A stretch of 64,000 nt of DNA from Aquipuribacter nitratireducens (GTDB taxonomy: Bacteria; Actinomycetota; Actinomycetes; Actinomycetales; JBBAYJ01). This document shows positions 12,684-62,275 of the stretch, one piece after another; position 1 is the first letter of the stretch; every line of letters begins with the position of its first letter. The DNA lies in NCBI RefSeq assembly GCF_037860835.1, contig NZ_JBBEOG010000006.1:62001-126000 (forward strand). Direction: 5' to 3'. The notes under the pieces were generated by a model. It was not told the DNA's origin. It saw only the letters and a list, made by a program, of their open reading frames with translations, and made no database searches. The position numbers and the translations under genes are program-made.

Positions 12684-13826
12684 ATGATCCGGCTCCGGGG
12701 CGTCCGCAAGGAGTACGCCGACGGCACGGTCGCCGTCGAGGGCCTCGACCTCGACGTCCGCCGCGGCGAGCTCGTCGCCCTCGTCGGCCCCTCCGGCTGC
12801 GGCAAGTCGACGATCCTGCGGATGGTGAACCGGCTCATCGAGCCGAGCGGCGGGTCGATCGAGGTCGACGGGACCGACGTCATCCACGCCGACGGCCCCA
12901 CCATGCGCCGCGGCATCGGGTACGTCATCCAGTCCGGGGGCCTCTTCCCGCACCGGACCGTGGCCGACAACGTCGCGACGGTCCCCCGCCTCGTCGGCTG
13001 GGACAGGCGCCGCACGCGCGAGCGGGTCGACGAGCTGCTCGGCCTCGTCGGGCTCGACGCCCAGCGGCACGGACCGCGGTACCCCCACGAGCTGTCCGGC
13101 GGGCAGCGGCAGCGCGTCGGCGTCGCGCGGGCGCTCGCGGTCGACCCGCCCGTCCTCCTCATGGACGAGCCGTTCGGCGCCGTCGACCCGCTCGTGCGCG
13201 ACCGGCTGCAGATCGAGTTCCGCCGGCTGCAGCAGCGTCTGGGGACCACGGTCCTCCTCGTCACCCACGACATCGACGAGGCCGTACGCATCGCCGACCG
13301 CATCGCCGTCCTCAGCGTCGGCGGGCGGCTCGAGCAGTACGACGCGCCGGCGAACGTCCTCGGGGCTCCCGCGACGGAGTTCGTCGCGGACTTCGTCGGG
13401 GCCGACCGCGGCCTGCGCCGCCTCGCCGTCACCCCGATCCTCGACGAGGACCTCGAGCACCCGCCGACGGTGCAGGTGTCGGACACCACCGACCACGCCC
13501 TCGCCCTCCTCGAGGCGTCCCACCTCGACTACGCCGTCGTCCTCGACGGCGACGCGCTGCGCGGCTGGGTGTCGCAGCAGGCGCTGCGGCGCGGGCACAC
13601 CGTCGGGGAGGTGCGCCGCCGCTTCGACGACACGGTCGACTGCCGCGACAGCCTCAAGACGGGCTTCAGCGAGATCGTCGCCCACGACGCCGGCTGGCTG
13701 CCCGTCCTCGACGGCGAGCGCTACATGGGCGTCCTCACTCCGGACTCGGTGCACCGGGCGCTGCGGCGCCTCCTGCCGGAGCGGGTCGACGGGGAGCTCC
13801 CCCGGGTCGTGAACCTCGCCGTCTGA
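12684..13826 (+). CDS. Glycine betaine/choline-type ABC transporter ATP-binding protein
   Basis: ATPase of 380 residues that powers the importer encoded divergently. Walker A is GPSGCGKST at residues 35-43, the signature is LSGGQRQR near 135, Walker B with the following Glu is LLMDEPFG near 155, and the switch His is in LLVTHD. The C-terminal 120 residues (VQVSDTTDHALALLEASHLDYAVVLDGDALRGWVS) are CBS-like, as in OpuCA/OpuAA, where they sense ionic strength. The start is ATG, with GTG three bases earlier as an alternative; GGTGAG lies close upstream. A strong hairpin follows the stop. Confidence 0.93.
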   Translation: MIRLRGVRKEYADGTVAVEGLDLDVRRGELVALVGPSGCGKSTILRMVNRLIEPSGGSIEVDGTDVIHADGPTMRRGIGYVIQSGGLFPHRTVADNVATVPRLVGWDRRRTRERVDELLGLVGLDAQRHGPRYPHELSGGQRQRVGVARALAVDPPVLLMDEPFGAVDPLVRDRLQIEFRRLQQRLGTTVLLVTHDIDEAVRIADRIAVLSVGGRLEQYDAPANVLGAPATEFVADFVGADRGLRRLAVTPILDEDLEHPPTVQVSDTTDHALALLEASHLDYAVVLDGDALRGWVSQQALRRGHTVGEVRRRFDDTVDCRDSLKTGFSEIVAHDAGWLPVLDGERYMGVLTPDSVHRALRRLLPERVDGELPRVVNLAV

Positions 13827-13830
13827 CGTC

Positions 13831-13850
13831 CCGCTCCGCGCCCGGAGCGG
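13831..13850 (+). terminator. Hairpin terminator after the ABC ATPase gene
   Basis: CCGCTCCG at 13831-13838 pairs perfectly with CGGAGCGG at 13843-13850 around a 4-base loop. It starts five bases after the stop codon. It separates the transporter gene from the GGAD-repeat gene. Confidence 0.65.
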
Positions 13851-13930
13851 CGACCGGGCCGTCCCGCCTCGCGGGCGGGTCGGGGCTGGGAGATGCTCCC
13901 CGTACCGACCACCACACGAGGAGGACGCAC

Positions 13931-14194
13931 ATGGCGCTCGACGACGAGATGACGACGACCGGCGGGGACGAGCACGGTCCCGCGGACCACGGCGCCGAGG
14001 GCGTGCCCGGTGAGCACGACGGCGGCGCGGACGGCGGTGCGGACGGCGGTGCGGACGGCGGTGCGGACGGCGGCGCGGACGGCGGCGCGGACGGTGGGGC
14101 GGAGCACGGCCCGGCCGACCACGGCGCCGACGGCACCCCCGGGGAGCACGACGGCGGGGCGGACGGCGGCGCCGACAGCGGGGCGGACCGCTGA
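13931..14194 (+). CDS. GGAD-repeat acidic small protein, unknown function
   Basis: An 87-residue, highly acidic peptide made almost only of Gly, Ala, Asp, Glu, His and Pro, with no Cys, Lys or aromatic residue. Residues 31-54 are six perfect GGAD tetrads, then GGAE. A module, EHGPADHGAxGxPGEHD followed by GGAD units, occurs twice (starting at Glu14 and Glu58, 44 residues apart). The ATG has a strong GAGGAGGA 7 bases upstream, and a hairpin isolates it from the gene before. It is immediately followed by a JmjC/cupin oxygenase-like gene. The His/Asp pattern could bind metal, or the peptide could be a substrate of the cupin enzyme; both are inference. I recognise no family. Confidence 0.7.
   Translation: MALDDEMTTTGGDEHGPADHGAEGVPGEHDGGADGGADGGADGGADGGADGGADGGAEHGPADHGADGTPGEHDGGADGGADSGADR
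13970..14164 (+). repeat. Duplicated 63-base module in the GGAD gene
   Basis: The segment at 13970-14032 (residues 14-34) is repeated at 14102-14164 (residues 58-78) with mostly third-position differences. The difference at synonymous sites suggests an old duplication kept by selection on the protein. Confidence 0.8.
14021..14104 (+). repeat. 12-base tandem repeats encoding GGAD units
   Basis: Seven 12-base units of the form GGCGGTGCGGAC (third-position variants) encode six GGAD and one GGAE tetrad. Unit gain or loss would stay in frame. Confidence 0.9.
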
Positions 14195-15459
14195 CGACCA
14201 CGGACAGCGCCCACCAGGGCGGCACGACGCGCCGGGCGGTCACCGACCGCCCGGCGCTGTCGCGCTGCACCGCGGTGCCGGTCGGGGAGTTCGCCGAGCG
14301 CGTGTGGGCGCGCGTGCCCTCCCTCAGCAGCGCCGCCGACCTGCCGCGGGACTTCACCGACCTCCTCGACCTCGCCGACGTCGACCGGCTGCTGTCCGAG
14401 CAGGGCCTGCGCACCCCGTTCCTGCGTCTGGCGAAGGACGGGCAGGTCGTGCCCGAGTGGCGCTGGACCGGTGGTGGCGGCGTCGGCGCCGGCATCGCCG
14501 ACCAGGTCCGCGACGACCGGGTCGCCGAGCTCTTCGCGGACGGCGCGACGGTCGTGCTGCAGGCGCTGCACCGCACGCACGCGCCGCTCGTCCGCTTCGC
14601 CGCGGACCTCGCCGCGGACCTCGGCCACCCCGTGCAGGTCAACGCCTACGTGACGCCGCCGCAGAACCAGGGGTTCGCCTCCCACTACGACGTCCACGAC
14701 GTCTTCGTCCTCCAGGTCGCGGGCGAGAAGCGGTGGCGCCTGCACGCGCCGGTCGTCACCGACCCGCTGCGCGACGACCCGTGGACCGACCACCGCGCCG
14801 ACGTCGAGGCCCGCGCGGCCGAGGCGCCGTACCTCGAGGCCGTGCTGCGCCCCGGCGACGCCCTCTACCTGCCGCGCGGCTGGCTGCACGCCGCGACGGC
14901 ACTGGGTGACGTGTCGGCCCACCTCACCGTCGGGGTCCACGTGCGGACGCGCGCCGCGCTGGTCGAGGAGCTCGCCCGGCTCGTCCTCGACGACCCCGCC
15001 CTGCGGTCGACGCTGCCGCTCGGCACCGACCTCACCGCACCCGACGCGCTCGCCCCGCACCTGGACGCGACCGTCGACGCGCTCGTCTCACGGCTGCGCA
15101 CCGTCGACCCCGCGGCGCTCGCGGACCGCCTCACCGGTCCCGTGCTCTCGGGCAACCGCCCCGCGCCGCTGGCACCGCTCGCGCAGGCTGCGGCCGTCCG
15201 TACGACCGACGCGGCCACGCGGGTGCGTCTCCGGCCTGGTCTGCGCCACGTGCTCCGCGAGGACACCGACGAGGTCGTCGTCGTGACGGGCGACCGCCGT
15301 CTCGCCGTGCCGGCGCGCGCTGGCGACGCCGTCCGGACCCTGCTGTCCGGGGCCACGGTCTCGGCCGCCGGCCTGCCCGGCCTCGGCGTCGACGACGCGG
15401 TCGACCTCGTGCGGCGTCTGCTCCGCGACGGGCTCGTGGTGCCGGCACCGCCGGCGTGA
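14191..15459 (+). CDS. JmjC/cupin-4 domain protein (putative Fe(II)/2-oxoglutarate hydroxylase)
   Basis: A cupin_4/JmjC-like protein of up to 422 residues, related to ribosomal-protein hydroxylases such as YcfD/RoxA. Metal-ligand candidates are His165 and Asp167 in SHYDVHDVF, and His233 in LPRGWLHA (numbered from 14191). The QVNAYVTPP and GEKRWRLH segments match the family. A C-terminal helical/winged region follows. The first usual start is GTG at 14275, but the conserved-looking SRCTAVPVGEFAERVW region begins upstream of it. CTG at 14191, overlapping the stop of the GGAD gene as CTGA, fits better. The next gene overlaps by four bases, so all three are probably one transcript. The substrate is unknown. 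Confidence 0.85.
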   Translation: MTTTDSAHQGGTTRRAVTDRPALSRCTAVPVGEFAERVWARVPSLSSAADLPRDFTDLLDLADVDRLLSEQGLRTPFLRLAKDGQVVPEWRWTGGGGVGAGIADQVRDDRVAELFADGATVVLQALHRTHAPLVRFAADLAADLGHPVQVNAYVTPPQNQGFASHYDVHDVFVLQVAGEKRWRLHAPVVTDPLRDDPWTDHRADVEARAAEAPYLEAVLRPGDALYLPRGWLHAATALGDVSAHLTVGVHVRTRAALVEELARLVLDDPALRSTLPLGTDLTAPDALAPHLDATVDALVSRLRTVDPAALADRLTGPVLSGNRPAPLAPLAQAAAVRTTDAATRVRLRPGLRHVLREDTDEVVVVTGDRRLAVPARAGDAVRTLLSGATVSAAGLPGLGVDDAVDLVRRLLRDGLVVPAPPA

Positions 15460-16373
15460 GCGCGTCGCACCGGCCACCGCGCTGCGCGGACGCCGCCGAA
15501 CGACGCGGTGACCCGCTCGCCGGGTCCGCGGTCCCCGTCGCCCGCTGGCTGCTCGTCGAGCAACCGGGCCCGTGGGGCCGGGAGGCGCTCACGCAGTCCC
15601 GGCTCGACGTCGACGTCGCGGCCCACCTCGGGACGGTGGCCCGGGAGGTGGGCGCACGCGTGCTCCTCGTCCGACGTCACGGGCGGGCCGGTCGGCACGG
15701 CCACGGCCGCCGGCACTGGGCGGTCGCCGACTCCCGACCCGGATCGGAGAGCCTCCGGTGGGGCCGCTACGACGACGAGCGGGAGCTGCTCGACCTCGAC
15801 CCGGCGACCCTGGTCGGCCCACCGGCGGCGGCCGGCCCGGCCGAGACCGTCTACCTCGTGTGCACCCACGCCCGGCACGACACGTGCTGCGCGGTCCGCG
15901 GTCGCGGCGTCGCCGCGGCCCTCGACGACGTCGCACCCGGGCGGGTGTGGGAGTGCTCCCACGTCGGCGGCTGCCGGTTCGCCGCCAACGTCGTGGTCCT
16001 CCCCCACGGGCTGTACTACGGGCGCGTGGGCCCCGCGTCCGCCCCGGCCCTCGTCGAGGCGACCGACCACGGCCACGTCGTGGCCGACCTCCTGCGGGGC
16101 CGGTCCTCCCTGAGCGGCGCCGCCCAGGCGGCCGAGCACCACGCCCGCCGCGTCCTCGCCGGACCCGACGTCACCCGCCTCGACGCGTTCCGGGCGCTGC
16201 GCGAGCGCGGGCTCGGCGGGGGCCGCGTCGAGGTGCGCCTGCTGCGCACCCGCACCGACCAGGTCGTCGACGTCACCGTCGCCCGTGAGGACACAGCAGC
16301 GCCGACCCTGCTGACGTGCGCGGCGACCCGTCCCGCCGCGCCCCAGGGGTGGCGGCTCGCCGGCCTGCGCTGA
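15456..16373 (+). CDS. Sucrase/ferredoxin-like (Suc_Fer) protein
   Basis: A 305-residue Suc_Fer-family protein with a thioredoxin-like 2Fe-2S ferredoxin fold. The N-terminal CADAAERRGDPLAGSA and WLLVEQPGPWG segments are typical. The cluster-binding region has CTHARHDTCCA followed by ECSHVGGCRFAANVVVLPHG and YYGRV. The usual GGHRF is GGCRF here, adding an extra Cys. The GTG start overlaps the cupin stop by four bases. A redox protein beside an oxygenase could supply electrons or act on the same product, but no partner has been shown for this family. Confidence 0.87.
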   Translation: MSASHRPPRCADAAERRGDPLAGSAVPVARWLLVEQPGPWGREALTQSRLDVDVAAHLGTVAREVGARVLLVRRHGRAGRHGHGRRHWAVADSRPGSESLRWGRYDDERELLDLDPATLVGPPAAAGPAETVYLVCTHARHDTCCAVRGRGVAAALDDVAPGRVWECSHVGGCRFAANVVVLPHGLYYGRVGPASAPALVEATDHGHVVADLLRGRSSLSGAAQAAEHHARRVLAGPDVTRLDAFRALRERGLGGGRVEVRLLRTRTDQVVDVTVAREDTAAPTLLTCAATRPAAPQGWRLAGLR

Positions 16374-16377
16374 CGCG

Positions 16378-17022
16378 TCAGCCCGGCGACCGACCGCGCA
16401 GGTGCTCGAGCGCCCACGCCTCGTCGACGACCTCGGCGTACTTCGCCGCCAGGTCCCGGAGGTTGGCGGAGTGGACGTCCGCGGACCGGTCGCCGCACGC
16501 GTCGGCGACGACGAAGGGCGTGAAGCCGTGGGACATCGCGTCGACGACCGTGGCCCGCACGCAGCCGGACGTCGACACCCCGCACACGACGACGGTGTCG
16601 ACGCCGGCGGCGGTGAGCGTCGAGGCGAGCGTGGTGCCGAAGAACGCCGACGGCATCTGCTTGAGGAGGACGACCTCGTCGTCGCGCGGGGCGACCTCCG
16701 GCCGGAACTGCCCGGCCGCGGTGTCCCCGACGAAGTCGAGGAGCCCGGGGACCTTCCGGACGAAGGGCCCGCCGTCGAGACCGCCGGCGGCGTAGCGGAC
16801 CCCCGAGTGGGCGACGAGGACGCCGGCGGACCGGGCGGCCTCCAGGAGCCGCGCCGCCGACCGGAGCGGCTCGAGCGACGGCAGCTGGAAGGTGCCGCCC
16901 TCGTCGTAGTAGGCGCGGACCATGTCGATGCACAGCAGGGCGGTGCGCCGGCCCGGCCGGAGCGTGCCGCCCCAGCCGGACCGGTCGTGCGTGCCCTGGT
17001 GGGCGGACAGGTCGGGCGTCAC
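16378..17022 (-). CDS. Isochorismatase-family cysteine hydrolase
   Basis: A 214-residue hydrolase with the family triad Asp33 (LLCIDM), Lys121 (VLLKQMPSAFFGT) and Cys154 (CGVSTSGCVRATV), with the preceding cis-peptide GVS region. Closest families are N-carbamoylsarcosine amidase and related amidohydrolases. The GTG start overlaps the stop of the hydantoinase B gene by four bases. Next to hydantoinase A/B, hydrolysis of an N-carbamoyl amino acid to amine, CO2 and ammonia is a reasonable role. It ends four bases from the convergent Suc_Fer gene. Confidence 0.88.
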   Translation of the reverse strand: MTPDLSAHQGTHDRSGWGGTLRPGRRTALLCIDMVRAYYDEGGTFQLPSLEPLRSAARLLEAARSAGVLVAHSGVRYAAGGLDGGPFVRKVPGLLDFVGDTAAGQFRPEVAPRDDEVVLLKQMPSAFFGTTLASTLTAAGVDTVVVCGVSTSGCVRATVVDAMSHGFTPFVVADACGDRSADVHSANLRDLAAKYAEVVDEAWALEHLRGRSPG

Positions 17023-61010: not shown

Positions 61011-62275
61011 GGCGTCCGGCCCGCGAAGTCCAGCAGCGTCGCGTCGTCGAGGCCCGTCGCGACGCGCACCTCGTCGCCGTCGAGCGCTCCGTCGTCGATG
61101 CCCCGCAGCAGCGCCCCGGCGAGGGCCCGGGCGGTGGCGGGCTCGTCGAGGGTGCCGGCCGCGGCACCGGCGGCGTAGGCGCGCAGCCGCGCGGCGGTGG
61201 CGGCGAGCTCCGCCCGGGCGAGGGCGACGGTGACGGCGTACCGGGTGACGAGCTGGCCCGGATGGAGGTCCCAGCCCTGCCGCAGCGCTCGGGCGTGCGC
61301 GCGGCGGACGAGGCGCCCGTGGAGGACGAGCGCGTCCCGCACCTGCTCGGGTGTCCCCACGGGCAGCACGTTCGTCGACCCGTCGCTCACGCGCACCCCG
61401 GTCTGCGCAGCGGCCAGCTGCATGACGGCCTTGGCGTGGTCGGCGAGCGGGTGGTCGAGGGACTGGTCGGCCGGCCCCACGCCGAGGGCGGCGCTGAAGT
61501 CGTACGTGCCGTAGTGGAGGCCCTCGACGCGCCCGGCCCCGGCGTGGACCAGGCGCGCGACCGTCGCCGAACCGTCGGCGGCGACCACGGCCTGCGGCAG
61601 CTCGACCTGCAGCTCGAGCCTCAGCGCTCCCGCCGGCAGACCGTGCGCGACCTCGAGCCGCTCGACCACGAGGACGGCGGCCTCCACGTGGGCGGGCGAC
61701 GCCACCTTGGGCCACGTCACGACCGTCCGGTGCGGCAGCCCGCCGGTGTCGGCGGCGGCGCCGACGAGCCGGTCGAGGCTGCGGAGAGCCCGGGCCCGGG
61801 TCGCCGGCTGCAGGCCCTTGACCCGCACCCCGGCGACGAACGGCGCACCCGCGTCGTCCCGCCAGGCTGCGAGCGTCCGACCGGCGGCCGCCGCGTGGGC
61901 GTCCTCCTCGGCGTCCGGCCGCAGGCCGTAGCCGTCCTCCAGGTCGATCCGAAGGTCCTGGACGGGACGCTCCCGGAGGACGCGACGGACGCGGGTCAGC
62001 ACCTCCTCCGCGTCAGCCGGCGCGAGCGGGACCCCGATGTCGGCGAGCAGGCGCGCGAGCGCGTCGACGTCGCCGGCGTTCGCGTCGAGGACCGCGCGCG
62101 CTTCGGCGCCCCACAGAGAGGGGGTGGTGCGGTCGGCCCGGTCCGCCGACACGTAGCACGTGTGGACCGGCTGCCGGGTCGTCGCGTCCCCCGGGTACGC
62201 GCGGGCCGTCGCGGCGTCGTCGTCGGCGAGGAGCGCGTCGACCTCCGCCAGCAGGTCGCGGGCTGCCCCGCTCAC
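61007..62275 (-). CDS. DUF6986 family (citrate lyase/aldolase-like) protein
   Basis: A 422-residue protein of the DUF6986 type, related to the HpcH/HpaI and malate-synthase-like TIM barrels. Metal-site candidates are in [11 protein letters not shown] (~residue 110), [17 protein letters not shown] and [16 protein letters not shown]. It is a regular member of actinobacterial urate operons. Its reaction is not established; use of glyoxylate or ureidoglycolate, the end products of the pathway, is an attractive guess. The GTG start overlaps the uricase stop. Confidence 0.85.

Follow-up and report, generated by a model that had tools for sequence, protein, structure and literature searches.

An aspartate-rich repeat peptide encoded beside a ROX-type JmjC oxygenase: a proposed peptide-modifying cassette of Aquipuribacter nitratireducens and its relatives

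Described systems and the locus under study

The closest solved relatives of the enzyme considered here are the ribosomal oxygenases (ROX) NO66 (RIOX1), MINA53 (RIOX2) and YcfD, which combine an HxD...H JmjC domain with a dimerisation region and a C-terminal winged helix, an architecture described in the cited part of PMC6006756. An enzyme of the same build is encoded in a 64,000-nucleotide stretch of Aquipuribacter nitratireducens (contig NZ_JBBEOG010000006.1, forward strand, positions 62,001 to 126,000), hereafter the window, to which all coordinates below refer. Here, unlike in the described ROX, the oxygenase gene is tied to a small gene for an Asp-repeat peptide and, often, to a gene for a Suc_Fer-like protein, and the enzyme carries extra conserved basic residues. 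We propose, with a probability of roughly 0.6, that the unit is a cassette like those for ribosomally synthesized and post-translationally modified peptides (RiPPs), in which the ROX-type JmjC enzyme binds a leader on the peptide and beta-hydroxylates many of its Asp residues, with the Suc_Fer-like protein as redox helper.

According to the cited parts of PMC12707348 and PMC12257519, BipG/PbsQ is a JmjC (cupin-like) ornithine hydroxylase of the biphenomycin RiPPs and, as here, a JmjC-type 2-oxoglutarate (2OG) enzyme hydroxylating a ribosomal precursor peptide. By the description given there, on which the likeness rests, it acts on one Orn in an aromatic-rich core and its cluster includes an MNIO enzyme, a radical SAM enzyme, an arginase and a protease, whereas the window system is a stand-alone cassette with an Asp-repeat core. 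According to its title, PDB entry 2xum contains a JmjC enzyme co-crystallised with an Asp-substrate peptide. In PMC12710340, PF08007 proteins of fish and algae are reported to have folds like RiPP recognition elements (RREs), with bacterial homologues in RiPP-like contexts, so that a RiPP setting for JmjC enzymes is no novel idea. The cited passages of that paper define RREs by a strands-then-helices order and, unlike the present case, mention neither an Asp-repeat precursor nor a Suc_Fer cassette. Beta-hydroxylation of Asp in ribosomal precursors is known from PesHI (PMC13060819) and SmaO/SmaX (PMC13097080); PesHI differs in being an MNIO enzyme, of another class, that modifies one Asp outside any repeat array. 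Bufferins, in the cited portion of PMC12452194, are ribosomal metal-binding peptides made by an iron enzyme, an idea shared with the present proposal. Their enzyme is again an MNIO and they bind copper; the leader-bearing peptides of the family described here are nearly devoid of Cys. No MNIO/DUF692 family was listed for any of the three proteins (Pfam, E <= 0.1). No described Asp-repeat/JmjC/Suc_Fer system was present among the matches listed from the open-access literature, strings such as DGGADGG were not found in that literature, and the pairing of an Asp-repeat peptide with an oxygenase in many soil bacteria appears to be undescribed.

The repeat peptide and its conserved position

The three genes lie on the forward strand. 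The first (13931..14194, from open reading frame (ORF) calling) encodes the 87-aa Asp-rich repeat peptide, a putative precursor, from an ATG start preceded by GAGGAGG; the second (14191..15459) encodes the ROX-type JmjC (JmjC_2) Fe(II)/2OG oxygenase, of 422 aa if CTG 14191 is the start; the third (15456..16373) encodes the Suc_Fer-like protein. Both joints are overlaps of four bases (CTGA at 14191-14194 and GTGA at 15456-15459), and the original prediction of a single, tightly overlapping unit is thereby confirmed. Comparison with relatives identified the start of the peptide, MALDDEMTTT (13931..13960), as a shorter variant of an acidic leader motif, LxDDD[IM]xT, that is common to most of the peptides. 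The core (14018..14188) consists of GGAD tetrads and HGPADHGA..PGEHDGGADGGAD modules; 12 D[GSH][GSA]A tetrads were counted in the whole peptide, and Tandem Repeats Finder reported a period-12 array at 14018-14103 (7.2 copies, 94% matches). A search of the 3.83-Mb genome for the DGGADGGA codon pattern gave seven forward-strand matches, every one within the peptide gene; because the pattern is confined in this way, and because the oxygenase has such a gene as its neighbour in relatives too, the array is more than chance. The conserved pair of peptide and oxygenase has so far gone unannotated: no Pfam family (E <= 0.1) and no NCBIfam family was assigned to the window peptide, and three other peptide members yielded only three sub-threshold, low-complexity MSCRAMM matches in NCBIfam, all for one member.

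A first survey located the oxygenase in 17 of 59 relatives, with a repeat gene upstream in most full-length cases. At E <= 1e-20, and with distant JmjC relatives included, oxygenase matches were present in 129 of 394 genomes of the class, 66 of which held a single match of at least 290 bits; matches occurred in 58 of 396 genomes of the phylum. Removal of 20 duplicate oxygenase sequences reduced 197 loci to 177, and the requirement of at least 400 bp of upstream DNA reduced these to 166 (11 dropped). Close relatives are the 153 loci scoring at least 260 against the oxygenase profile; the named loci are the best 80 of at least 552 confirmed matches and form a biased set. A fixed automatic test detected an Asp-rich small ORF ending near the oxygenase start at 149 of the 153 close relatives, as compared with 39 of 4268 control anchors taken from these loci. 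Where the test gave no hit (L004, L038, L043, L080), GGAD-type ORFs are nonetheless present, but they fell narrowly outside its limits or contained too many basic residues. At two loci (L012, L128) the Asp-rich ORF is not repetitive, has no leader and has no nearby Suc_Fer gene; these were counted as negative, for a final tally of 151 of 153 with a repeat peptide gene upstream. The oxygenases of these two loci, which are related, have possibly changed or lost their substrate. A stricter test, for at least three tetrads, was positive at 129 of 140 loci and in 9 of 2193 control windows. Counted by genus, with metagenome-assembled genomes and unverified or family-level names excluded, the peptide was present in 24 of 25; the other, Sciscionella, has too little upstream DNA. 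A Suc_Fer gene was directly downstream in 124 of 150 loci (three more were dropped for less than 300 bp of downstream DNA) and none was nearby in 26. A lack of conservation of the small gene beside cupin/Suc_Fer pairs in relatives would have counted against the original prediction; these counts show that the gene is conserved. Among the 13 distant relatives scoring below 260, none had a nearby Suc_Fer gene and four passed the Asp-rich test, a contrast that is not independent because the limit of 260 was chosen after the scores and the Suc_Fer calls were known.

The reading frame of the peptide is under selection. When the arrays of 127 loci were shifted by 12 nt, mismatches were concentrated at codon position 3 (538/1481, against 66/1719 at position 1 and 42/1701 at position 2); the window array, with small counts, gave 1/23, 0/24 and 4/23 at positions 1, 2 and 3. 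The leader, exemplified by MALDDDDMTT, MSINDDDITT, RVEDEDIVTTW and LSDEEIETVW, persists where the core has changed beyond recognition, and a loose regular expression, run without a control, detected it in 119 of the 153 close relatives. One leader form was also scanned, blind to the oxygenase, in 388 genomes: 15 matches were returned in 15 genomes, all of them 196-320 nt from an oxygenase match, and the reversed pattern gave none among the matches listed. That pattern is narrow, missing the variant MALDDEMTTT of the window (0 matches in its own genome).

The cores, by comparison, differ strongly between clades yet retain Asp: the types observed include pure GGAD arrays, DPAGSDPAG, DADSTDADA and DADGTDGDGTDGTDGD. 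Among the 119 leader-bearing cores, drawn from ORFs that the Asp-rich test had selected, Asp and Ala each occurred at least three times in 119, Gly in 118, Ser in 93, His in 51 and Arg in 7. Since Asp was kept in every core examined, even if the test had partly built this in, it is the best candidate for the target residue. The earlier suggestion that the peptide is the substrate of its neighbour stands to that extent, on its position beside the oxygenase and, with the same circularity, on its Asp; an EHD module binding Fe or Cu is not supported as a general rule, since His reaches three copies in 51 of the 119 cores. A divergent precursor at L205 has a leader of the same type (LGDDDISS) and another repeat grammar (repeats of type GPRDA..DGTDQGV.GGTY), with no Suc_Fer gene within 0.8 kb downstream.

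Alternatively, the peptide could escape modification and serve as an acidic scaffold or as a binder of metal (Fe, Ca, Mn or Zn), a cofactor carrier, with the oxygenase and the Suc_Fer-like protein as iron-linked partners that it supplies or senses. The computed isoelectric point of the window peptide is 4.05, the leader-bearing peptides are 19% Asp and 33% Gly (Cys makes up 0.01% of residues), both partners are iron proteins by family, and divergent cores such as DADGTDGDGTDGTDGD resemble DxDxDG metal loops. Against this, cassettes without a nearby Suc_Fer gene retain the peptide with the oxygenase alone, and a short conserved leader followed by a core that varies is more suggestive of a substrate that an enzyme recognises than of a metal site; we regard a mere carrier as unlikely.

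The oxygenase and the Suc_Fer-like protein

Pfam placed the oxygenase in JmjC_2 (PF08007, 96 bits) and, at 45 bits, in Cupin_8. Two alignments were used, A1 with 16 more divergent rows and A2 with 36. The HxD...H site is complete, as had been predicted (H165, D167, H233), and is invariant in both alignments, as are N151 and K180, which by analogy with relatives are presumably the 2OG-binding residues. The AlphaFold2 (AF2) model has a mean predicted local distance difference test score (pLDDT) of 91.0 and aligned with NO66 (4y4r_A) over 384 residues (Z 29.5, root-mean-square deviation 4.6, model residues 19-422); MINA53 (Z 28.4) and YcfD (Z 20.3) were further matches. The predicted architecture is complete and NO66/MINA53-like, with JmjC domain, dimerisation region and winged helix, and against the family profile eukaryotic NO66 reached scores of up to 122 bits, higher than the 37-55 bits of YcfD-type enzymes. 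Five basic residues (R74, R79, H127, R128, H169) are invariant in all 36 rows of A2; in the divergent A1, R74, R128 and H169 are invariant, H127 is nearly so and R79 is not conserved. At the aligned positions of NO66 the residues are missing or not basic. These family-specific residues would be fitting for an acidic substrate.

So complete a ROX architecture could belong to an ordinary ribosomal oxygenase that acts on a ribosomal protein, with the peptide regulating it or riding along. The linkage of the peptide in 151 of 153 close relatives, the occurrence of one leader form solely beside the oxygenase in 388 genomes, the restriction of other neighbour families to at most five genera among the 25 largest clusters, and the basic residues absent from NO66 all argue to the contrary, and we consider this very improbable. 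Somewhat less remote, though doubtful, is that the oxygenase modifies sites other than Asp (His, or the backbone) or oxidises the peptide in another way, for example by desaturation or cyclisation. By the titles of their structure entries NO66 and MINA53 are His hydroxylases and YcfD is an Arg hydroxylase, and His-bearing PGxHDGGAD modules occur in many genera; however, three or more His were counted in fewer than half of the leader-bearing cores (51/119) and three or more Arg in hardly any (7/119).

The C-terminal winged-helix domain (15190..15456, delimited by DSSP on the AF2 model and an alignment, A4) is the proposed leader-binding part of the oxygenase. Its strands precede its helices in the model, which is the RRE-like order. 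The RIOX1_C_WH family matched it weakly in one of 32 members, and RRE proteins were not among the best 50 structure matches listed, a whole-chain comparison that excludes nothing.

The start of the oxygenase deserves comment. The first ATG, GTG or TTG in its frame is GTG 14275 (residue 29), but R25 is invariant in both alignments, L23 is found in every row of A1 and in no fewer than 90% of those of A2, and A22 likewise reaches at least 90% in A2. Because residues 22-25 are conserved and lie before GTG 14275, CTG 14191 or another non-AUG start is implied, and the CTG within the CTGA overlap is, from these alignments, the likeliest reading. A second in-frame CTG is found at residue 23. In the congener L002 the same CTG is the sole start-like codon before the conserved region; in the congener L003 it is accompanied by an in-frame GTG six codons later.

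The Suc_Fer-like protein, our proposed redox helper, matched PF06999 with 85.3 bits (cut-off 34.9), and its model (mean pLDDT 91.9) indicates a thioredoxin-like [2Fe-2S] ferredoxin domain: the sole Foldseek matches at E <= 0.001 were the thioredoxin-like ferredoxins 1f37, 1m2a and 1m2d, over about 100 residues. Cys10, Cys136, Cys144, Cys145, His169 and Cys288 are invariant in 34 rows, of which C136, C144/C145 and H169 are candidate [2Fe-2S] ligands. A second Suc_Fer gene is located away from the unit in the same genome (G000:C3:308977-309507). On a quick tree of 162 oxygenases, which has long branches and from which L004 fell out, the presence of Suc_Fer required 11 changes, at least nine of them by well-supported branches. 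Absence here means that none was detected downstream within 0.8 to 4 kb, rather than genome-wide. One clade of 14 (12 of them Micromonosporaceae) has the peptide in 14 of 14 and no Suc_Fer gene within 1.3 to 4 kb downstream; since it keeps the peptide without a nearby Suc_Fer, peptide and oxygenase form the core pair, and we read Suc_Fer as an accessory helper that was lost several times.

Proposed mechanism, flanks and distant relatives

From what the data directly support (a conserved unit, a leader, a coding frame, cofactor residues and a predicted fold) we infer the modification, its target residue and purpose, the binding of the leader and of metal, and the role of Suc_Fer. In the proposed mechanism, the small gene would yield a precursor whose N-terminal leader is acidic and whose low-complexity core consists of many repeats that contain Asp. 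The oxygenase would hold on to the leader, probably through the winged helix at its C terminus, while it moves along the core and, most likely, beta-hydroxylates the Asp residues. Suc_Fer, where present, would keep the iron of the oxygenase reduced or carry out a further redox step. The expected product is a very acidic peptide, hydroxylated at many positions, that might bind metal. It may act intracellularly or be cut by general proteases, as no linked protease or exporter was found in a coarse search of the neighbourhood. That the neighbouring oxygenase modifies the peptide is likely; for beta-hydroxylation of Asp as the chemistry, the odds are about even or slightly better.

Several observations weigh against the proposed cassette. 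The closest relatives of known structure modify His or Arg residues in ribosomal proteins, and the winged helix did not match PqqD or known RRE families by sequence. The leader was missing by regular expression in 34 of 153 close relatives, part of these reflecting start-site errors or the discounted loci L012 and L128, and in some groups, L122-L133 and L138-L142 among them, the peptides begin with a short acidic stretch that lacks DDDI. Counting Asp in the cores involves some circularity, since only ORFs that had passed the Asp-rich test were counted; the presence of an Asp-rich ORF at nearly every locus is the stronger fact. The retention of Asp, Gly and Ala could also be explained by a repeat with a structural or metal-binding role, for which no modification would be required. 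Finally, no protease or exporter family recurred beside the unit in more than five genera, in what was a coarse test: the clustering of neighbours covered the 80 named loci, flanks of up to 4 kb and ORFs of at least 90 aa that passed a filter on GC content at third codon positions (GC3), and it misses genes, since Suc_Fer itself was recovered in only 40 loci. Nor did any further neighbour family extend across more than five genera among the 25 largest clusters shown.

The 5' neighbour of the unit encodes a CBS-domain-containing ATPase of an ABC transporter; the 3' neighbour, on the opposite strand, encodes an isochorismatase-family hydrolase. Between the ABC-transporter gene and the peptide gene a 7-bp inverted repeat can be read on the forward strand (CCGCTCC-6-GGAGCGG, 13831-13837 and 13844-13850), without a T run. 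The hairpin that had been placed before the unit can be read as this repeat, but a scan of 13600-16500 found no terminator-like site with a T run and no sigma-70 promoter. Matches were present in 136 plasmid records, all below 60% identity and none covering 80% of the query.

Short upstream ORFs were also observed at distant JmjC loci without a nearby Suc_Fer gene, containing DSDGTDSSSDFI (L163, L165), DNDGTDGSSDFI (L164) or DSDGSDG (L169). At L163, L164 and L165 they are of the type MDPMEVEVEDLAEVTSRD..DSDGTDSSSDFI and look like a single-core relative of the system; a prolyl oligopeptidase gene (Pfam) precedes at L163, and similar-looking ORFs stand there at L164 and L165. The sequences hint at DG[TS]D as a feature that substrates in this distant JmjC branch may share. 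Another distant JmjC gene (L167:2558-3984) adjoins genes for TfuA (Pfam, 100 bits) and YcaO (173 bits), a combination familiar from the thioamidated peptides.

Should the repeats indeed be modified by the oxygenase, the cassette would represent a new class of modified peptides with a repeat core, a JmjC activity directed at Asp, and a bacterial test bed for the role of the winged helix in ribosomal oxygenases. More speculatively, and on present evidence improbably, it may stand for a phylum-wide family of ribosomal poly-(beta-hydroxyaspartyl) metal-binding peptides, the leader of which is read by the winged helix of the ROX-type JmjC enzyme that makes them. Were this true, a bacterial peptide-modifying system and the human enzymes NO66 and MINA53 would have a common ancestry, and the winged helix of the human enzymes would be a relic of a peptide-leader reader or would work like one.

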